A stretch of 64,000 nt of DNA from Lachnospiraceae bacterium (GTDB lineage Bacteria; Bacillota; Clostridia; Lachnospirales; Lachnospiraceae), in assembly GCA_017460885.1 (NCBI GenBank), contig JAFUAB010000037.1:1-64000 (forward strand), in the 5' to 3' direction. The position numbers were made by a program, and so were the translations under genes. The notes beneath the pieces are model-generated. The model was not told the origin of the DNA. It was given only the letters and a program-made list of their open reading frames with translations, and searched no databases. Positions 1,761-34,620 of the stretch are shown here, piece by piece. Position 1 is the stretch's first letter; the number at the start of each line of letters is the position of its first letter.

Positions 1761-4700
1761 TTATGAAGACGCAAGAAGCGGAGCAAAAGCTTCGCGTATC
1801 AGATACTCTGTTTTTTTCAAAAGATTGGCAGTCTCCAGTTCTACCAGAGATTCCGTTTTATACCTGTATACAAATTCAGGCGTGCCTTTGGGAGAGAATG
1901 TCAGATCACCCTTACATATCGCCAGAGCCTCGGGAATCCCTTCCACTCTGATGGGCGCATCGCCTCTCATTATCACGCGGATCCTGCCGGCTCCGCCTTT
2001 TATCTCGGCTACGCCCAGTTTATGTGCATCGGATTTGATCAGCGCTATCCTGAGCAGATTGTCGGCACATACCGGTACGGAGCCGAACCTGTCTCTCAGC
2101 TCATCCTGCATATCCCTGTATTCATCGGGGCTTCCGATGGCAGTGATACGCTTGTATATGTCCAGCTTCTGCATTTCATTCATTATATAATCGCCGGGAA
2201 TGTATGCATCTACATCCAGGTCCACCTGGGTTTCATAATCCGGTGTCACCTCCTCACCCTTGCGGGTTCTCACCGCCTCCGCAAGCAGCTTGCAATACAT
2301 ATCGTAACCGACGGACTGCATATGTCCGGACTGCCTGCTGCCCAGCAGGTTACCTGCGCCTCTGATCTCCAGATCCCTCATAGCGATACGATATCCGCTG
2401 CCGAAGTCGGTAAACTCGCGGATCGCCTCCAGTCTCTTTTCCGCAACTTCCTTAAGAAGCTTGTTCCTGCGGTACATCAGAAATGCATACGAAGTACGGC
2501 TGGATCTGCCCACGCGCCCTCTCAGCTGGTACAACTGTGCCAGTCCCAGCCTGTCGGAATCGTGTACTATCATGGTGTTTACATTCGGAATATCCATACC
2601 GGTCTCAATGATCGTAGTCGAGACCAGTACATCTATATCTCCTGCCACGAAATCATACATGATACGTTCAAGCTCATGCTCCTGCATCCTGCCGTGCGCA
2701 AATTCCACCCTGGCCTCCGGTACCAGTGAGCGCAAAGAAGCAGTGATATCTTCTATATTGTTAATGACATTATAGACATAGTAGACCTGTCCTCCGCGGC
2801 TGACCTCCCTGACTATGGCTTCCCGGACTATCTCCTCATTATATTCGCATACAAAGGTCTGGATCGGTCGTCTTTCCTCCGGCGGTTCCTCCAGCAGACT
2901 CATATCCCTGATACCTATCAGTGACATATGCATGGTACGCGGGATGGGAGTTGCGGTCAGAGTCAGCACATCCACGGTCTCCTTCAGTTTCTTGATGGTC
3001 TCCTTATGCTTAACGCCGAAACGCTGCTCCTCATCTATGATAAGAAGTCCCAGATCCTTAAATCCAACATCCTTGGACAGAACCCTGTGCGTTCCGATCA
3101 CGATATCCACCATACCGGCTTTTAGGTTTGCGATGACCTTTTTCTGCTCGGATGCGGTCCTGAAGCGGCTCAGCAATTCCACCCTGACGGGAAAGTCCTT
3201 CATCCTCCGGGTAAATGTAGTATAGTGCTGCTGGGCAAGTATGGTAGTAGGCACCAGATATACGACCTGTCTGCCCTCCTGTACGGCCTTGAATGCCGCA
3301 CGTATGGCTATCTCGGTCTTGCCAAAGCCCACATCTCCGCAGATCAGGCGGTCCATGATGCGGGTGGACTCCATGTCCGACTTCACCGCCTCGATCGCTC
3401 TCAGCTGATCCTCGGTCTCCTCATAAGGGAACATTTCCTCAAACTCACGCTGCCAGACGGTATCACTGCCGTATACATATCCCTGCAGGCTCTGCCTGGC
3501 CGCATACAGCTTAACCAGATCATCGGCGATCTCGTCCACCGCTTCCCTGACTTTGGCCGTAGTCTTTTCCCATTCTTTTGTACCCAGCTTGTTGAGTTTG
3601 GGCGCATGTTCGCTGCCCGAAGCATATTTCTGGATCACATCCAGACCGGTGGCGGCAACATACAGATTACCGCCGTCACGATATGCGATCTTTATATAAT
3701 CCTTGACCACATGGTCGACCTCGACCTGCTCGATCCCTTTATATATTCCAAGTCCGTGAGACTCATGCACCACATAATCTCCGACCTTGAGCTCCGCAAA
3801 ATCCCTGACAGCTTTGGACGGATCGATCAGTGACTTGCGGCGCTTTTTCTTTTTGGCTGCACCGAAGATATCAGATTCGGAGATTACGCAGAACTTAGCA
3901 TCGGGATACTCGAATCCGCGTCTGATGTGTCCGTAGAAGCACTCAACCTCACCCGGCTGGATCTCGCGTGACGCATCCTCACTGTAAAGTGCCGTCAATC
4001 CTTCCGCGCTCAGATCCGATGCCAGTCGTCTGGCCCTGGTCCGCGAAGGAGAGATCAGGGCGACCCTGTATTTGTTCCTGTGATATTTCTTCAGATCGGT
4101 GACCAGCGCGTCAAAACTGTTATTATATGAAGTAACGGCTTTGGCACGGGCGTCAAATTCGGAAGCCGGCTTGAAATACGGATTCGTACAGGCTACCGTG
4201 CCAAGCAGCACAAGATGCCTGTCCGCAACAAGGGCTGCACACTTCTCATTATCTATGATCAGTTCGGCCTGCCCCGGCAGAATATATCCCTTTTCCAGAC
4301 GGTGGATCATACTCTGGCGGAATTCGTCCTCCGTAGCGGAAGCATGCTCGGCGCAATGAGCGGGCTCATCTATAAATACCGCCGACTGTTCCTCATCAAA
4401 ATAAGATATGATCGAATCGATATGATCATAAAAATATCCTATATAGCCCTCCAGATTGACACTGTCCCGGGACATCCCGAGTTCCAGCAGCTGCTCGGAA
4501 AGTTCGGCGGCGCGGTTACGGATGCGGGCGGCCTCCTCGGTTTTAAACTGCCTGCGGAGTGCTTCGGAATATTCACCGGCTTCCTCGTTTATCCTGGACA
4601 GACCCTTCCGGAGCTCGTTTTCATTCAATATCAGTTCACTGGCCGGATAGATCGAAACACGGTCAAGCTTGATAATGGATCTCTGGGATTCCACATCGAA

Positions 4701-5333: not shown

Positions 5334-5362
5334 TGTGTCAACAGAACCGTCCCGGCGACACA
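5334..5362. repeat. 29-bp palindromic extragenic repeat (copy 1)
   Basis: An imperfect palindrome beginning TGTGTC and ending GACACA around the core AGAACCGTCCC, located between pth and mfd. Two more copies lie at 30705-30733 and 30770-30798. The GGGACGGTTCT core resembles the REP-like palindromes scattered in many Firmicutes genomes (established knowledge, from memory). Confidence 0.75.
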
Positions 5363-29709: not shown

Positions 29710-29715
29710 ATGGGT

Positions 29716-30429
29716 ATGAAACTCGAAAGAATGAATGAACAACAGATAAGATGCACTCTGACCGCCGAGGATCTGCGTGAAAGAAAGATCAAACTCAGCG
29801 AGCTTGCCTACGGTACCGACAAAGCACAGTCCCTTTTCAGGGATATGATGCTGCAGGCATCCGCGGAACTTGATTTTAATGTGGATGACGAGCCTCTGAT
29901 GATCGAAGCCGTGCCCATGAGCGCAGATTGCATGGTCCTGACGGTCACCAAGGTTGACGATCCCGATGAGCTTGATACCAGGTTTGCCAGGTTTGCGCCC
30001 GAAGTCCTCGAAGATAAAGACTATGACAGCGATGATCTTTTTGATACCGGACATGCGGAGGACATACAGTCCTGGCTCACCGATCTCACCAGATCAGATG
30101 GCCAAAAAACTCCCGATATCACTGCGGACGACAAGGAACTGGCCAGGCTCTTCTCACTTAAGGACATGGACCGCTGTATTACACTTGCCCATGTCATAGG
30201 AGACGAATATGACGGTGTCAATTCCCTTTACCGGGACAGCCGTACAGGCAGATACCTTCTGATACTCGCCAAATCGGGGATGGATCTTGTCGCTTTCAAC
30301 CGTATCTGCAACATCGTATCGGAATACGGTCAGAGCGAAAAAAGCCTGCTTGCCACCTCGGCATTTCTCGAGGAGCACTGCGAAATCATCATCCGCGAAA
30401 GAGCGATCCAGCAGCTTTCACAGATCTGA
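29716..30429 (+). CDS. mecA: Adaptor protein MecA
   Basis: ClpC adaptor that delivers substrates for proteolysis and affects competence and other regulators in Firmicutes. About 237 residues. N-terminal MKLERMNEQQIRCTLTAEDL with the family's short start and LFRDMMLQASAELDF, an acidic Asp-rich linker (about 95-135), and a C-terminal ClpC-binding domain (about 140-237) that begins near LARLFSLKDMDRCITLAH. An ATG 6 nt upstream (29710) touches the -10 and is unlikely to be transcribed. The terminator follows directly. Confidence 0.9.
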   Translation: MKLERMNEQQIRCTLTAEDLRERKIKLSELAYGTDKAQSLFRDMMLQASAELDFNVDDEPLMIEAVPMSADCMVLTVTKVDDPDELDTRFARFAPEVLEDKDYDSDDLFDTGHAEDIQSWLTDLTRSDGQKTPDITADDKELARLFSLKDMDRCITLAHVIGDEYDGVNSLYRDSRTGRYLLILAKSGMDLVAFNRICNIVSEYGQSEKSLLATSAFLEEHCEIIIRERAIQQLSQI

Positions 30430-30460: not shown

Positions 30461-30491
30461 TGGTGGAGGTCATCCCTCCACCGTTTCTTTT
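30461..30491. terminator. Bidirectional terminator between mecA and the DUF1858 gene
   Basis: GGTGGAGG/CCTCCACC stem (30462-30482). A T-rich tail follows on the plus strand (30484-30491) and an A run (30455-30460) serves the minus strand. Confidence 0.8.
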
Positions 30492-30688
30492 ATCTCTCTC
30501 TTGTTTTCTATGAATTCCATCAGTTCATCGATGTCGATACCGTGTACCGCAGCGGCTTCCTCGAGGGTCTCACCCTGTGATGCGGGGCATCCAAGGCAGT
30601 GCATTCCAACACCCATCAGAAGCGGTGCCACATCGGGTGCACTTACCAAAATCTCACCGATCGTCATATCTTTGGTTACGGGGGTCAT
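30470..30688 (-). CDS. DUF1858 small redox-like protein
   Basis: 72 residues of the DUF1858/hybrid-cluster-protein-associated disulphide family: [27 protein letters not shown] with a Cys31-x2-Cys34 pair, then [21 protein letters not shown]. The ATG at 30688 is chosen because AAAAGGAGAC lies directly upstream; an in-frame start at 30712 has none. It faces mecA and is divergent from pflB. The family is often near redox enzymes, but its reaction is unknown. The stop lies inside the bidirectional terminator stem. Confidence 0.88.
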
Positions 30689-30704
30689 ATACTGTCTCCT
30701 TTTC

Positions 30705-30798
30705 TGTGTCAATGGGACGGTTCTGTCGACACATCATATGTATTTAAGCTGATCAAAAGGCTTTTTAAATGTGTCGGCAGAACCGTCCCGCCGACACA
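30705..30798. repeat. Inverted pair of 29-bp palindromic repeats (copies 2 and 3)
   Basis: Copies at 30705-30733 and 30770-30798 in opposite orientation, separated by 36 bp. Both have TGTGTC/GACACA ends and the GGGACGGTTCT core, and they match the copy at 5334-5362. The head-to-head pair resembles a BIME-type unit of REP elements. Confidence 0.8.
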
Positions 30799-30842: not shown

Positions 30843-30900
30843 TTGAAAGTAGAAACTTCGAAAGCTATAATTATGTCCGTAAACGCATCCGTAAGGATGC
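30843..30900 (+). promoter_or_regulatory. Strong promoter and 5' hairpin of the pfl operon
   Basis: -35 TTGAAA (30843-30848), 17-nt spacer, perfect -10 TATAAT (30866-30871). A GCATCC/GGATGC hairpin (30885-30900) lies in the leader, followed by TTAGGAGG before the ATG. The strength fits a major fermentation enzyme. Confidence 0.85.
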
Positions 30901-30933: not shown

Positions 30934-32970
30934 ATGAGATCAGAATGGAATGAATTCGTAGGTGGCAAGTGGGATCACGAGATCAATGTACGTGATTTCA
31001 TCCAGAGGAACTATACTCCCTATGACGGAGATGAGTCCTTCCTTGCAGGCCCTACACAGAACACCAAGGATCTGTGGGCACAGGTTCTTGATCTGCAGAA
31101 GCAGGAGCGTGAAGCAGGCGGAGTACTTGATATGGATACAAAGGTTGTATCTACCATCACTTCACACGGCCCCGGATATCTTGACAAGAGCAAGGAGACT
31201 ATCGTAGGTTTCCAGACAGATAAGCCTTTTAAGCGTTCACTTCAGCCTTACGGCGGTATCCGTATGGCAGAGAAGGCATGTGCCGACAACGGTTATGAAG
31301 TAGATCCCGAGATTTCCGAGTTCTTCTCCGTACATCGCAAGACACACAATGCAGGCTGCTTCGATGCTTACAATCCCGAGATGAGAGCATGCCGTTCTTC
31401 GCACGTTATCACCGGTCTTCCGGATGCATACGGACGCGGACGTATCATCGGCGACTATCGTCGTGTTGCTCTTTACGGTATCGACAGACTGATCGAGGAT
31501 AAGGAAGAGCAGAAGGCTTCAACAGGACGTGTTATGACAGATGATGTTATCCGTCTTCGTGAAGAGCTTTCAGAGCAGATCGTAGCACTCAAGATGATGA
31601 AGGAAATGGCTGCATCATACGGCTGCGATATCGCTCGTCCCGCTTCCAACGTACAGGAAGCCATCCAGGCTACATACTTCGGATATCTGTGTGCGGTTAA
31701 GGAGCAGAACGGTGCCGCAATGAGCCTCGGACGTACATCCACATTCCTTGACATCTATGCAGAGCGCGACCTCAGGAACGGCGTATTCACAGAGGAGCAG
31801 ATCCAGGAATTCGTTGATCACTTCATTATGAAGCTTCGCTGCGTTAAGTTCGCACGTACACCTGAGTATAATCAGATCTTCGCCGGCGATCCCGTATGGG
31901 TTACCGAGTCTCTCGGCGGTGTAGGCGTAGACGGACGTCACATGGTTACCAAGATGAGCTTCAGATATCTGCATACTCTTGAGAACCTCGGTGCATCACC
32001 CGAGCCCAACCTGACGGTACTCTGGTCTGTAAGACTTCCCGATGCATGGAAGAAGTACTGCGCAAAGATCTCCATCACCACATCTTCCATCCAGTATGAG
32101 AACGATGACCTGATGAGAGTTACCCACGGTGATGATTATGGTATCGCATGTTGCGTATCTTCGATGGTTATCGGCAAGCAGATGCAGTTCTTCGGAGCTC
32201 GTGCAAACCTCGCTAAATGTCTTCTTTACGCTCTTAACGGTGGTGTCGACGAAGTCAGCCACAAGCAGGTTGGTCCCAAGTATCGTCCTGTTGAAGGCGA
32301 CATCCTCGACTATGATGATGTAATGGCCAAGTTCACAGATATGATGGAATGGCTCGCAGATGTATATGTAAATACTCTGAACGTTATCCACTATATGCAT
32401 GACAAGTACTGCTACGAGAGAGCACAGATGGCTCTTCATGACAGAGACGTTCTTCGTTACTTCGCTACAGGTATCGCAGGACTTTCGGTTGTTGCGGATT
32501 CACTTTCCGCTATCAAGTATGCTCAGGTCAAGGTTGTACGTGATGAGGACGGTATCATAGTTGACTTCGAGACTACCGGTGATTTCCCTAAGTATGGTAA
32601 CGACGATGACCGTGTAGACGTTATCGCAAGAGATCTGGTTAAGACCTTCATGACCATGCTCAGACGTCACCACACCTACAGAGACGGTTTCCCGACCATG
32701 TCGGTTCTGACCATCACATCCAACGTTACATACGGTAAGGCTACAGGTAATACTCCCGACGGACGTAAGAAGGGCCAGCCTTTCGCTCCCGGAGCAAACC
32801 CGATGCACGGACGTGATTCTCACGGTGCTGTTGCTTCACTTTCATCCGTATCCAAGCTTCCTTTCCAGTATGCTCAGGACGGTATCTCCAATACCTTCTC
32901 GATCATACCCGGAGCTCTCGGTAAGGATGACAAGGTATTCGCAGGCGACATCAACGTAGATCTGAACTAA
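30934..32970 (+). CDS. pflB: Pyruvate formate-lyase core, lacking the C-terminal glycyl-radical domain
   Basis: Converts pyruvate and CoA to acetyl-CoA and formate when activated. 678 residues against about 740-760 for intact enzymes. Seen: [18 protein letters not shown], the catalytic Cys406-Cys407 pair in [10 protein letters not shown], and the late segment [20 protein letters not shown], after which the protein stops with [10 protein letters not shown]. In E. coli the chain would continue through about 80 residues to the radical Gly734. Here that part is a separate downstream gene. The stop is followed by two genes with perfect SD sequences, so this is not a simple frameshift. Codon choice is strongly biased (GTA, CGT, GGT), as expected for high expression. 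Confidence 0.95.
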
Positions 32971-33001
32971 TAAACCAGACCGCAGACAGGAGGACAACAG
33001 C

Positions 33002-33205
33002 ATGGATAGTAATCAGCAGATAGATGATCTTGTCAAAATGCTGGATGCCGGAATGGCAAGCGGCGTAGGACACGTAAATGTAGATACCAGTGAAGAGGTT
33101 GACGGTATGAAGAGTGTTGAGACAATGGGCTGTACAGACTGCAGCCGTACACCGCTCGCATGCTCGGTACCCACTCTTCACGATGGGTTGGATGATTTCA
33201 AATAA
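33002..33205 (+). CDS. 67-residue cysteine-tailed paralogue of the glycyl-radical subunit start
   Basis: Starts 31 nt after the pfl core behind AGGAGGACAACAGC. Residues 5-28 (QQIDDLVKMLDAGMASGVGH...) align with the start of the following glycyl-radical subunit ([20 protein letters not shown]...). Instead of continuing into the RVSGYAV loop, the protein turns into an acidic segment and a tail with Cys44, Cys47 and Cys54 (GCTDCSRTPLAC). It looks like a diverged partial duplicate that gained a metal-binding or redox motif. A possible role is a chaperone, redox sensor or placeholder for the radical subunit; none is proven. I know of no named family. Confidence 0.85.
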   Translation: MDSNQQIDDLVKMLDAGMASGVGHVNVDTSEEVDGMKSVETMGCTDCSRTPLACSVPTLHDGLDDFK

Positions 33206-33223
33206 TAACAGGAGGTAATTAAA

Positions 33224-33463
33224 ATGGCAGCATCAGCTCAGGTTGACAACCTTGTTTCTCTCCTTGACGGATATGCAACAAAGGGTGGTCACCACTTAAA
33301 CGTAAATGTACTTAACAGAGAGACTCTTCTGGACGCTCAGAAGCATCCCGAGAATTATCCTCAGCTTACCATCCGTGTGTCAGGTTACGCAGTTAACTTC
33401 ATCAAGCTGACACCCGAGCAGCAGGCAGATGTAATCAGCAGAACCTTCCACGAATCGATCTGA
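33224..33463 (+). CDS. Separate glycyl-radical subunit of pyruvate formate-lyase
   Basis: 79 residues that match the C-terminal domain of [34 protein letters not shown], then [15 protein letters not shown] with the radical Gly54, and the final [24 protein letters not shown] lies upstream. It starts exactly where the core stops relative to intact PFL. It lacks the extra N-terminal region of the E. coli spare part YfiD/GrcA, which rescues an intact PFL after oxygen damage; here it should be an obligatory partner (inference). It would receive the radical from PflA, encoded 94 nt downstream. Confidence 0.93.
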
Positions 33464-33506: not shown

Positions 33507-33539
33507 AAGGGCGGAGCTCCCTGACGGAGCCCCGCCTTT
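33507..33539 (+). terminator. Attenuating hairpin between the radical subunit and pflA
   Basis: A GC-rich stem (AGGGCGG-GCTCC/GGAGC-CCGCC) followed by only TTTG, 19 nt before the pflA start. The short T run suggests partial read-through, lowering the activase level relative to PFL. Confidence 0.6.
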
Positions 33540-33557: not shown

Positions 33558-34349
33558 ATGACCAAGGGAAAGATTCATTCACTCGAAAGCTTCGGCACAG
33601 TAGACGGCCCCGGCGTAAGATATGTAGTATTTGTACAGGGTTGTCCCATGAGATGTCTATACTGCCATAATCCCGATACCTGGGAGATGCGTGACGGCAC
33701 TCTGACGGATCCGCAGGAAATAATCGATAATTATGAGCGAAACCGTCCTTTCTATCAGAATGGCGGCGGACTGACGGTAACAGGAGGCGAGCCTCTGATG
33801 CAGGTGGATTTCCTGATCGATCTTTTTACTCTGGCCAAACAGCATGGGATCCACACTGATATAGATACATCGGGTATCGCATACAGACCGGAAAACAAAG
33901 AGTTCATTGCCAAGCTTGATAAGCTGATGGAACTAACGGACCTCGTAATGCTGGATATCAAGCATATAGATCCCGAGAAGCACAAAGAGCTTACTTCTCA
34001 GCCCAACGACGGTATCCTCGCTTTCGTCAGATATCTCGACGAAAAAAATGTGGATATGTGGATCAGACACGTCATCGTTCCCGGCCTCACGGATGATGAT
34101 GAATATCTGTACAAGCTGGGATATTTTATCGGCCAATTCCACAATCTCAAGGCCCTGGATGCGCTCCCGTATCACACCATGGGTAAATCCAAATACGAGA
34201 AGCTCGGGATCGACTATCCCCTCGGTGATACACCTCCGATGGATCAGAAGATCCTCCTGGAAAAGAAGCAGGTGATACTGCAGGGAATCAAAGACAGAAG
34301 AGCTGAAGCAGGTATACCTCATGATGATTCCGTATTATTGGACGCATGA
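33558..34349 (+). CDS. pflA: Pyruvate formate-lyase activating enzyme
   Basis: Radical SAM enzyme that abstracts hydrogen from the PFL glycine. 263 residues. [4Fe-4S] motif Cys29-x3-Cys33-x2-Cys36 in QGCPMRCLYCHNPDTW, SAM-binding TVTGGEPLMQ, and LDIKHIDPEKH and RHVIVPGLTDD. RBS AAGGAGA. Last gene of the pfl transcript. In this organism its substrate must be the stand-alone 79-residue subunit, alone or bound to the core. Confidence 0.97.
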   Translation: MTKGKIHSLESFGTVDGPGVRYVVFVQGCPMRCLYCHNPDTWEMRDGTLTDPQEIIDNYERNRPFYQNGGGLTVTGGEPLMQVDFLIDLFTLAKQHGIHTDIDTSGIAYRPENKEFIAKLDKLMELTDLVMLDIKHIDPEKHKELTSQPNDGILAFVRYLDEKNVDMWIRHVIVPGLTDDDEYLYKLGYFIGQFHNLKALDALPYHTMGKSKYEKLGIDYPLGDTPPMDQKILLEKKQVILQGIKDRRAEAGIPHDDSVLLDA

Positions 34350-34449: not shown

Positions 34450-34620
34450 ATGGCATTTGTTATAGGTGATGGTTGTATTGCATGCGGAGCTTGCGAGGCT
34501 CAGTGTCCTGTTGGAGCTATTTCAATGGGTGACGGCAAATTCGAGATAGATCCCGATAAGTGCATTTCCTGCGGTTCATGTGCAGGCGGATGCCCTGTAG
34601 GAGCAATCTCAGAGGGCTGA
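34450..34620 (+). CDS. 2[4Fe-4S] clostridial ferredoxin
   Basis: 56 residues. Two cluster motifs: Cys9-x2-Cys12-x2-Cys15-x3-Cys19-Pro and Cys38-x2-Cys41-x2-Cys44-x3-Cys48-Pro. The ATG follows AAAGGAGG. A low-potential electron carrier suited to pyruvate:ferredoxin oxidoreductase (encoded at 52254-55392) and to hydrogenase or Rnf-type partners outside the window. It probably has its own promoter in the 100 bp after pflA, and a strong terminator follows. Confidence 0.97.
   Translation: MAFVIGDGCIACGACEAQCPVGAISMGDGKFEIDPDKCISCGSCAGGCPVGAISEG

Follow-up and report, generated by a model that had tools for sequence, protein, structure and literature searches.

A pyruvate formate-lyase divided between a core chain and a separate glycyl-radical subunit, accompanied by a cysteine-bearing third component

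In gut anaerobes, pyruvate formate-lyase (PFL) is one of the main enzymes supplying acetyl-CoA and formate, and it is a classic case of an enzyme destroyed by oxygen; other glycyl-radical enzymes, such as benzylsuccinate synthase and HPA decarboxylase, carry small cysteine-rich subunits. The E. coli enzyme PflB (1h16) has a Cys-Cys active site and the motif RVSGYAV, both of which it has in common with the locus described here. A stand-alone radical domain is also found in YfiD/GrcA (TIGR04365), in which it is preceded by a further, disordered N-terminal half; GrcA acts on a PFL of full length (PMC8683613). The same work reports that E. coli PFL cut at residue 695 and combined with YfiD shows wild-type activity once the radical is in place, that binding of YfiD to the truncated core is undetectable and the radical yield 32-fold lower, and that the lower activation arises because residues 696-733 matter (PMC8683613). 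A further model, GrcA3 (NF038360), covers a small protein only; the term GrcA3 was not found in the open-licence PMC literature.

The window, that is, the whole stretch of 64,000 nucleotides analysed here (G000:C15:1-64000), belongs to a 3.6-Mb draft genome that is 99% complete with 6.64% contamination. On its plus strand, the genes for a PFL core (core), a small protein that we call mid, a separate glycyl-radical subunit (rad) and a PFL-activating enzyme follow one another in this order (Table 1). The earlier note had given the distance between core and rad as 254 nt and had treated the gap as empty; it measured 253 nt and holds mid, a third conserved gene. The activase product reached the curated score of TIGR02493. 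The hairpin between rad and the activase gene is a possible transcript boundary, and the ferredoxin-like protein encoded further downstream is possibly an electron donor, so far putative, for the PFL system. Upstream of the PFL operon lie a MecA adaptor gene (29710-30429, plus strand) and, on the opposite strand, the gene of a DUF1858 protein (30470-30712, minus strand). Two facing copies of GACGGTTCTGYCGACACA were located at 30716-30787, upstream of the core gene, and a third at 5334-5351, with 0.04 copies expected on average from shuffles.

Table 1. Features of the PFL locus, in coordinates of the window.
Feature	Position	Strand	Basis
Promoter-like site 5' of core, TTGAAA-17-TATAAT, 11/12	30843..30871	+	consensus match only
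core, PFL of 678 aa, PflB without the glycyl-radical domain	30934..32970	+	
core, active-site Cys406-Cys407	32149-32154	+	
core, C-terminal extension of 14 residues	32926..32967	+	
mid, 67 aa, rad-like first half plus cysteine tail, radical motif absent	33002..33205	+	
mid, residues 1-31, homologous to rad residues 1-31	33002..33094	+	hhalign probability 96.0, E 4.1e-9
mid, cysteine tail CTDCSRTPLACSVPTLHDGLD (Cys44, 47, 54)	33131..33193	+	hhalign to core tails
rad, stand-alone glycyl-radical subunit of 79 aa, GrcA3 family	33224..33463	+	
rad, Gly54 codon	33383-33385	+	within RVSGYAV
G+C-rich hairpin between rad and activase gene	33510..33536		consensus match only; listed as terminator-like on the minus strand
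PFL-activating enzyme, radical SAM	33558..34349	+	TIGR02493, 291 bits, cut-off 231.75
4Fe-4S ferredoxin-like protein, 3' of activase	34450..34620	+	

Core matched the PflB model TIGR01255 with 1093.6 bits, above the curated cut-off of 994.2, over profile positions 2-665 of 744 only, and rad matched positions 665-744. The core chain stops at position 665 and is therefore devoid of the radical glycine; as had been proposed from the letters alone, the 79-residue gene encodes the missing C-terminal domain with RVSGYAV. Against E. coli PFL (1h16), core aligned with residues 9-681 and rad with approximately 683-758. Every row of the alignment, split or fused, had the vicinal pair Cys406-Cys407. Two further cysteines, Cys116 and Cys429, occurred in all aligned split cores and not in any fused PFL outside the clade described below; Cys429 is located six residues past the GAR motif near the active site. 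Most of the split cores examined ended in an acidic stretch like that of the window core, and a few differed. This acidic extension was missing where the radical domain is fused, and in those cores that bear a C-terminal cysteine tail (tail-type cores) it runs into that tail. With regard to the small subunit, rad scored above the cut-off of NF038360 (GrcA3; 161.4 bits vs 158) and below that of TIGR04365 (GrcA/YfiD; 102.5 bits vs 170), the latter match beginning at profile position 65, and 61 of its residues aligned with 6owr. The view that rad is unlike GrcA thus stood as far as the N-terminal half is concerned, which rad lacks, as it lacks a full-length PFL to serve, and has to be qualified in that the GrcA2 and GrcA3 models are themselves just 80 and 78 positions long. 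Taken together, these alignments argue strongly for a PFL split into a core and a separate radical subunit.

The other Gly_radical matches in the window's own genome were a second stand-alone rad, an NrdD and a 672-aa PFL2-type protein that is present twice. No other PflB and no full-length PFL were found in this 99% complete draft, and hence the full-length pflB elsewhere that the earlier note had named as evidence against a split enzyme did not turn up; core plus rad was the sole PflB-type enzyme that the genome yielded. As core is without the radical domain and no other PflB is at hand, the enzyme would work only as core plus rad. The family name of NF038360, autonomous glycyl radical cofactor, could also be taken to mean that rad is a mere YfiD/GrcA-like spare part for a full-length PFL, which is very improbable: such a PFL was not found in the own genome, which led us to reject this reading, and in the loci examined the core beside rad has no radical domain of its own. 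The two copies of the 672-aa PFL2-like protein (L065 and L066, contigs C33 and C50) have the same family scores and represent either a duplication or contamination of the draft (6.64%).

The second rad of the own genome, on contig C18, differs at 1 of 79 residues and has no core beside it, and this orphan copy lends support to the proposal of an 'exchangeable' radical subunit. In the own genus, the orphan rad lay near thioredoxin and receiver-domain-like genes in 6/6 genomes examined (Pfam-checked on L038 only). Among 17 orphan rads of other genera, three (L219, L221, L223) had genes for thioredoxin, rubrerythrin or desulfoferrodoxin close by, four (L215, L217, L218, L225) had Crp-family regulators in the vicinity, seven were beside apparent spoIIIAA/AB genes (Pfam-checked in L231 only), and three had none of these neighbours; the survey leaves out the orphan rads of G005, G071, G276 and G126. 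A tie between orphan rad and oxygen defence is suggestive and not general. Stretches similar to rad also occurred in 1,539 phage records and spanned 80% or more of rad in 41 of these; nine of the 12 phage matches listed cover at least 90% of it and are unannotated. These phage stretches are possibly bacterial carry-over.

In a family sample of 299 genomes, nearly one per genus, 221 genomes had a rad-like match at E ≤ 1e-20 and 114 had a stand-alone rad, defined as a frame of <300 aa, which by subtraction leaves 107 genomes with only other, presumably fused, matches. At this cut-off, 108 of the 114 split genomes had stand-alone matches only; G114, G148, G161, G294, G313 and G325 had one further match each, which may be a fused PFL, and no genome with both a stand-alone and a fused form was found among the matches listed for the 299. 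In a draw of 398 genomes from the phylum, all matches at E ≤ 1e-20 outside the own family were long and fused, besides short frames in G523 and G354. In a draw of 391 genomes from the class, searched at a strict cut-off, 16 genomes from outside the order, belonging to seven families, had a stand-alone rad, so that the split extends beyond the window's own family and its confinement to that family, which had been considered, is contradicted. For core itself, individual loci were inspected in the 38 genomes lacking mid, in further relatives and in the 80 near loci, which covers a part of the 76 split genomes with mid. As a separate observation, a second kind of split glycyl-radical enzyme, PFL2-type, was encountered at L062:3326-5949 (G021): its core of 776 aa extends to PFL2 profile position 708 of 786 and has an incomplete second copy upstream of it, and its stand-alone radical subunit of 84 aa, with RVAGYSAYF, covers profile positions 710-786.

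At least 585 relatives of core are present in GTDB genomes, of which the best 80 were kept; the closest named ones among the matches listed were Lachnospiraceae, including strain XBB2008. Mid lay directly 3' of core in all 80, and rad 3' of mid in 79, the contig ending in L073. Shine-Dalgarno (SD) sequences precede both core and rad in the window, and across the window and the 80 loci an SD of at least 4 nt was found at 81/81 core, 67/81 mid and 79/80 rad starts, vs 219/4466 internal ATGs. The codon use of rad resembled that of core, at the 98.2th percentile of 67-codon windows from the other ORFs of the window, and that of mid stood at the 83.8th. Median dN/dS was 0.055 for core, 0.139 for mid and 0.068 for rad, after exclusion of pairs with dS outside 0.1-1.5, which left 461, 79 and 278 of 600 pairs, respectively; mid is less conserved than rad and shows a weaker codon bias. 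Core and mid shared a reading frame in 23/80 loci and all three genes did so in 5/80, near chance, and this scatter of relative frames indicated that the three are translated apart. Alignments A2 and A3 exclude L103 (undetermined bases), and A3 also excludes L124. An artefact, in which a frameshift, pseudogene, misassembly or read-through would in truth give a single chain, has a negligible probability in view of the split in 114/299 family genomes, the scattered frames, the SD sites and purifying selection. Specifically, a pseudogene or misassembly was ruled out by conservation and purifying selection, decay and misassembly having already been judged unlikely before the arrangement was seen to recur in 80 loci with low dN/dS, and read-through or frameshifting as a rule was ruled out by the scattered frames in those loci.

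The first half of mid is homologous to the first 31 residues of rad, which we take to be the helix and strand preceding the radical loop of PFL, and a cysteine tail replaces the loop. Through its residues 46-64, mid aligned with the tail at the C-terminus of the tail-type cores (hhalign probability 95.4, E 1.7e-8). The window mid had no Pfam match, only 18.9 bits to GrcA3 among NCBIfam models (cut-off 158), and no match in the PDB at E ≤ 1; a set of 14 mids hit four Pfam families with one member each, at a best E of 0.037. When a mid profile was employed, 118 genomes matched at E ≤ 1e-3, of which 77 reached 60 bits and were taken to have mid; the other listed matches were mostly to the N-terminal half of rad, and a few to fused PFLs.

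By the 60-bit rule, 38 of the 114 split genomes were without mid. Rad had a core beside it or close by in all 38, and in 36 genomes this core ended in a tail with at least two cysteines. Among the 76 split genomes with mid, it lay directly before rad in 73; it was unlinked in G008 and G326, on other contigs, and in G311, 372 kb away on a single contig. In G159 a clear mid on another contig was recognised from its sequence, outside the 60-bit count, and G317 had neither mid nor core tail, even at E ≤ 1. A cysteine module, on either chain, was thus present in 113/114 split genomes of the family (73 with mid beside rad, 4 with mid elsewhere, 36 with a core tail). Among the 16 split genomes from outside the order, 12 yielded the module (as mid in G857, where it lies behind rad, G818 and G767, and as a tail in nine), and it was not found in G860, G958, G1058 and G896; the link between module and split is therefore strong, albeit not absolute. 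Mid without rad was seen in G012, a genome 67% complete. In L199 and L213 (G326 and G311, with mid unlinked) the gene order was core-activase-rad, the usual one being core-mid-rad-activase. A module that tracks split PFLs and, in mid, replaces the radical loop could be a radical quencher docked at the active site, whose thiol would return a hydrogen atom to the glycyl or thiyl radical and so switch the enzyme off before oxygen cuts it; the tail-type core, which is without a second docking half, speaks against this function, and we consider it improbable.

With regard to the cysteines themselves, two were invariant in all 21 aligned core tails (alignment A4, 21 of 32 tails examined), and x-[IV]-P-[NT] followed the second in 12 of these; their spacing ranged from adjacent to six intervening residues. 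A three-cysteine pattern fitted 79 of 81 mids (window plus 80 near loci), and only two cysteines were found in the distant mids L054, L056, L060 and L061. This conservation in tails and mids, together with thioredoxin near orphan rad in all six own-genus loci, would suit a redox or metal switch, by which a disulfide, zinc or Fe-S site, perhaps across the PFL dimer, would gate rad docking or activation. Such a switch is rather unlikely in our estimation: the variable spacing and the two-cysteine distant mids are unusual for a fixed metal site, and a switch alone leaves the copy of the rad docking half in mid unexplained.

All split cores in the core tree, from which the duplicates L021, L023 and L026 and the long rows L036, L154 and L155 were excluded, fell into one clade with a support of 100. 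The same clade holds seven fused PFLs, in which nearly all of its 15 diagnostic residues recur. From their position, these fused PFLs are likely to have arisen by re-fusion; this is likely rather than firm because the AU test did not reject all split rows as one clade (p 0.29). Searches for mid in ten genomes with fused PFLs (the seven of the clade and three others) returned only radical-domain matches and partial hits of ≤15.1 bits, and the cysteine tail was absent at 12 of 13 fused junctions examined. The fused PFL of L203 (G125) carries at 3170-3330 a cysteine tail, ...DVTCGCEEVTCAVD..., between core and radical domain, and could be an intermediate or a re-fusion.

The explanation that best accommodates these results overall, and that we regard as highly probable, is a split PFL made up of core, a replaceable rad and a cysteine module. 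In such an enzyme, core would supply the barrel and the active-site cysteines, rad would dock its helix-strand half on core and insert the radical loop, and the neighbouring activase, judging by the PFL family, would make the glycyl radical on rad. Oxygen would then cut rad at the glycine, and only a 79-residue part would have to be replaced, for which the orphan gene may provide extra supply. Of what the earlier note had put forward, core plus exchangeable radical subunit, the separate subunit held firm (sole PflB found, conserved, under selection) and exchange, now likely on the strength of the orphan rad, was reinforced; the third component had not been foreseen. Considering that the truncated E. 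coli core showed no detectable YfiD binding, split cores must bind rad better, and a split core may hold rad by its own means, perhaps via its C-terminal extension. The natural split lies about 14 residues earlier than the E. coli cut at 695, so that the counterpart of the 696-733 element reported there would be part of rad, and by this analogy rad looks like a complete cassette.

The cysteine module may, in turn, fill the rad slot of an empty core, keep a dithiol near the active site and protect core until rad displaces it. This placeholder role, which we advance tentatively and at somewhat below even confidence, explains best that the module tracks the split, is near-absent in fused PFLs, sits on core or on mid and replaces the radical loop. 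Slightly more tentative still is the possibility that mid and the core tail are two forms of a decoy that stands in for the radical domain and hands the slot to a fresh rad. If true, there would be a swap cycle of radical subunit, damage, placeholder and new subunit; we know of no glycyl-radical enzyme with repair of this kind. In many gut bacteria, the cysteine module and the separate rad would suggest a built-in swap of the oxygen-destroyed part.

No description of a split PFL core or of mid was found in the open-licence PMC literature among the matches listed, and the split PFL was absent from the accessible parts of PMC11528403, PMC13252398 and PMC12150765. NCBI already has a family for the radical subunit (GrcA3), and a structure group may be aware of the split; for the third component and its distribution, no description was found in the open-licence PMC literature. 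The closest solved chains to core are 38lb_A and 38la_A ('Formate acetyltransferase'). Of these, 38la_A stops at the split point, and 38lb_A resembles tail-type cores in that a DCAC motif is found at about 722-725 of its 739 residues; going by their sequences, both look like split-PFL cores, and 38lb is probably a tail-bearing one. No GrcA3-like chain was among the 34 PDB sequences matching rad.

In 114 of 299 genomes of a major gut family, the fragile part of PFL is thus a separate small protein. The E. coli YfiD work asks how a spare part enters the damaged enzyme (PMC8683613); the split PFL is a natural system in which each assembly inserts such a part, and in which repair, exchange and protection become testable. 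Mid, encoded next to a gene of central metabolism, represents a protein family that lacks annotation, and is an unstudied third player that tracks the split. It is a small cysteine-bearing accessory like the subunits of benzylsuccinate synthase and HPA decarboxylase, and the window mid is unlike these in having no Pfam match and in combining a rad-like half with a tail. In contrast to PflB, the split PFL thus consists of two chains, with a C-terminal extension of the core's own and a third, cysteine-bearing component.
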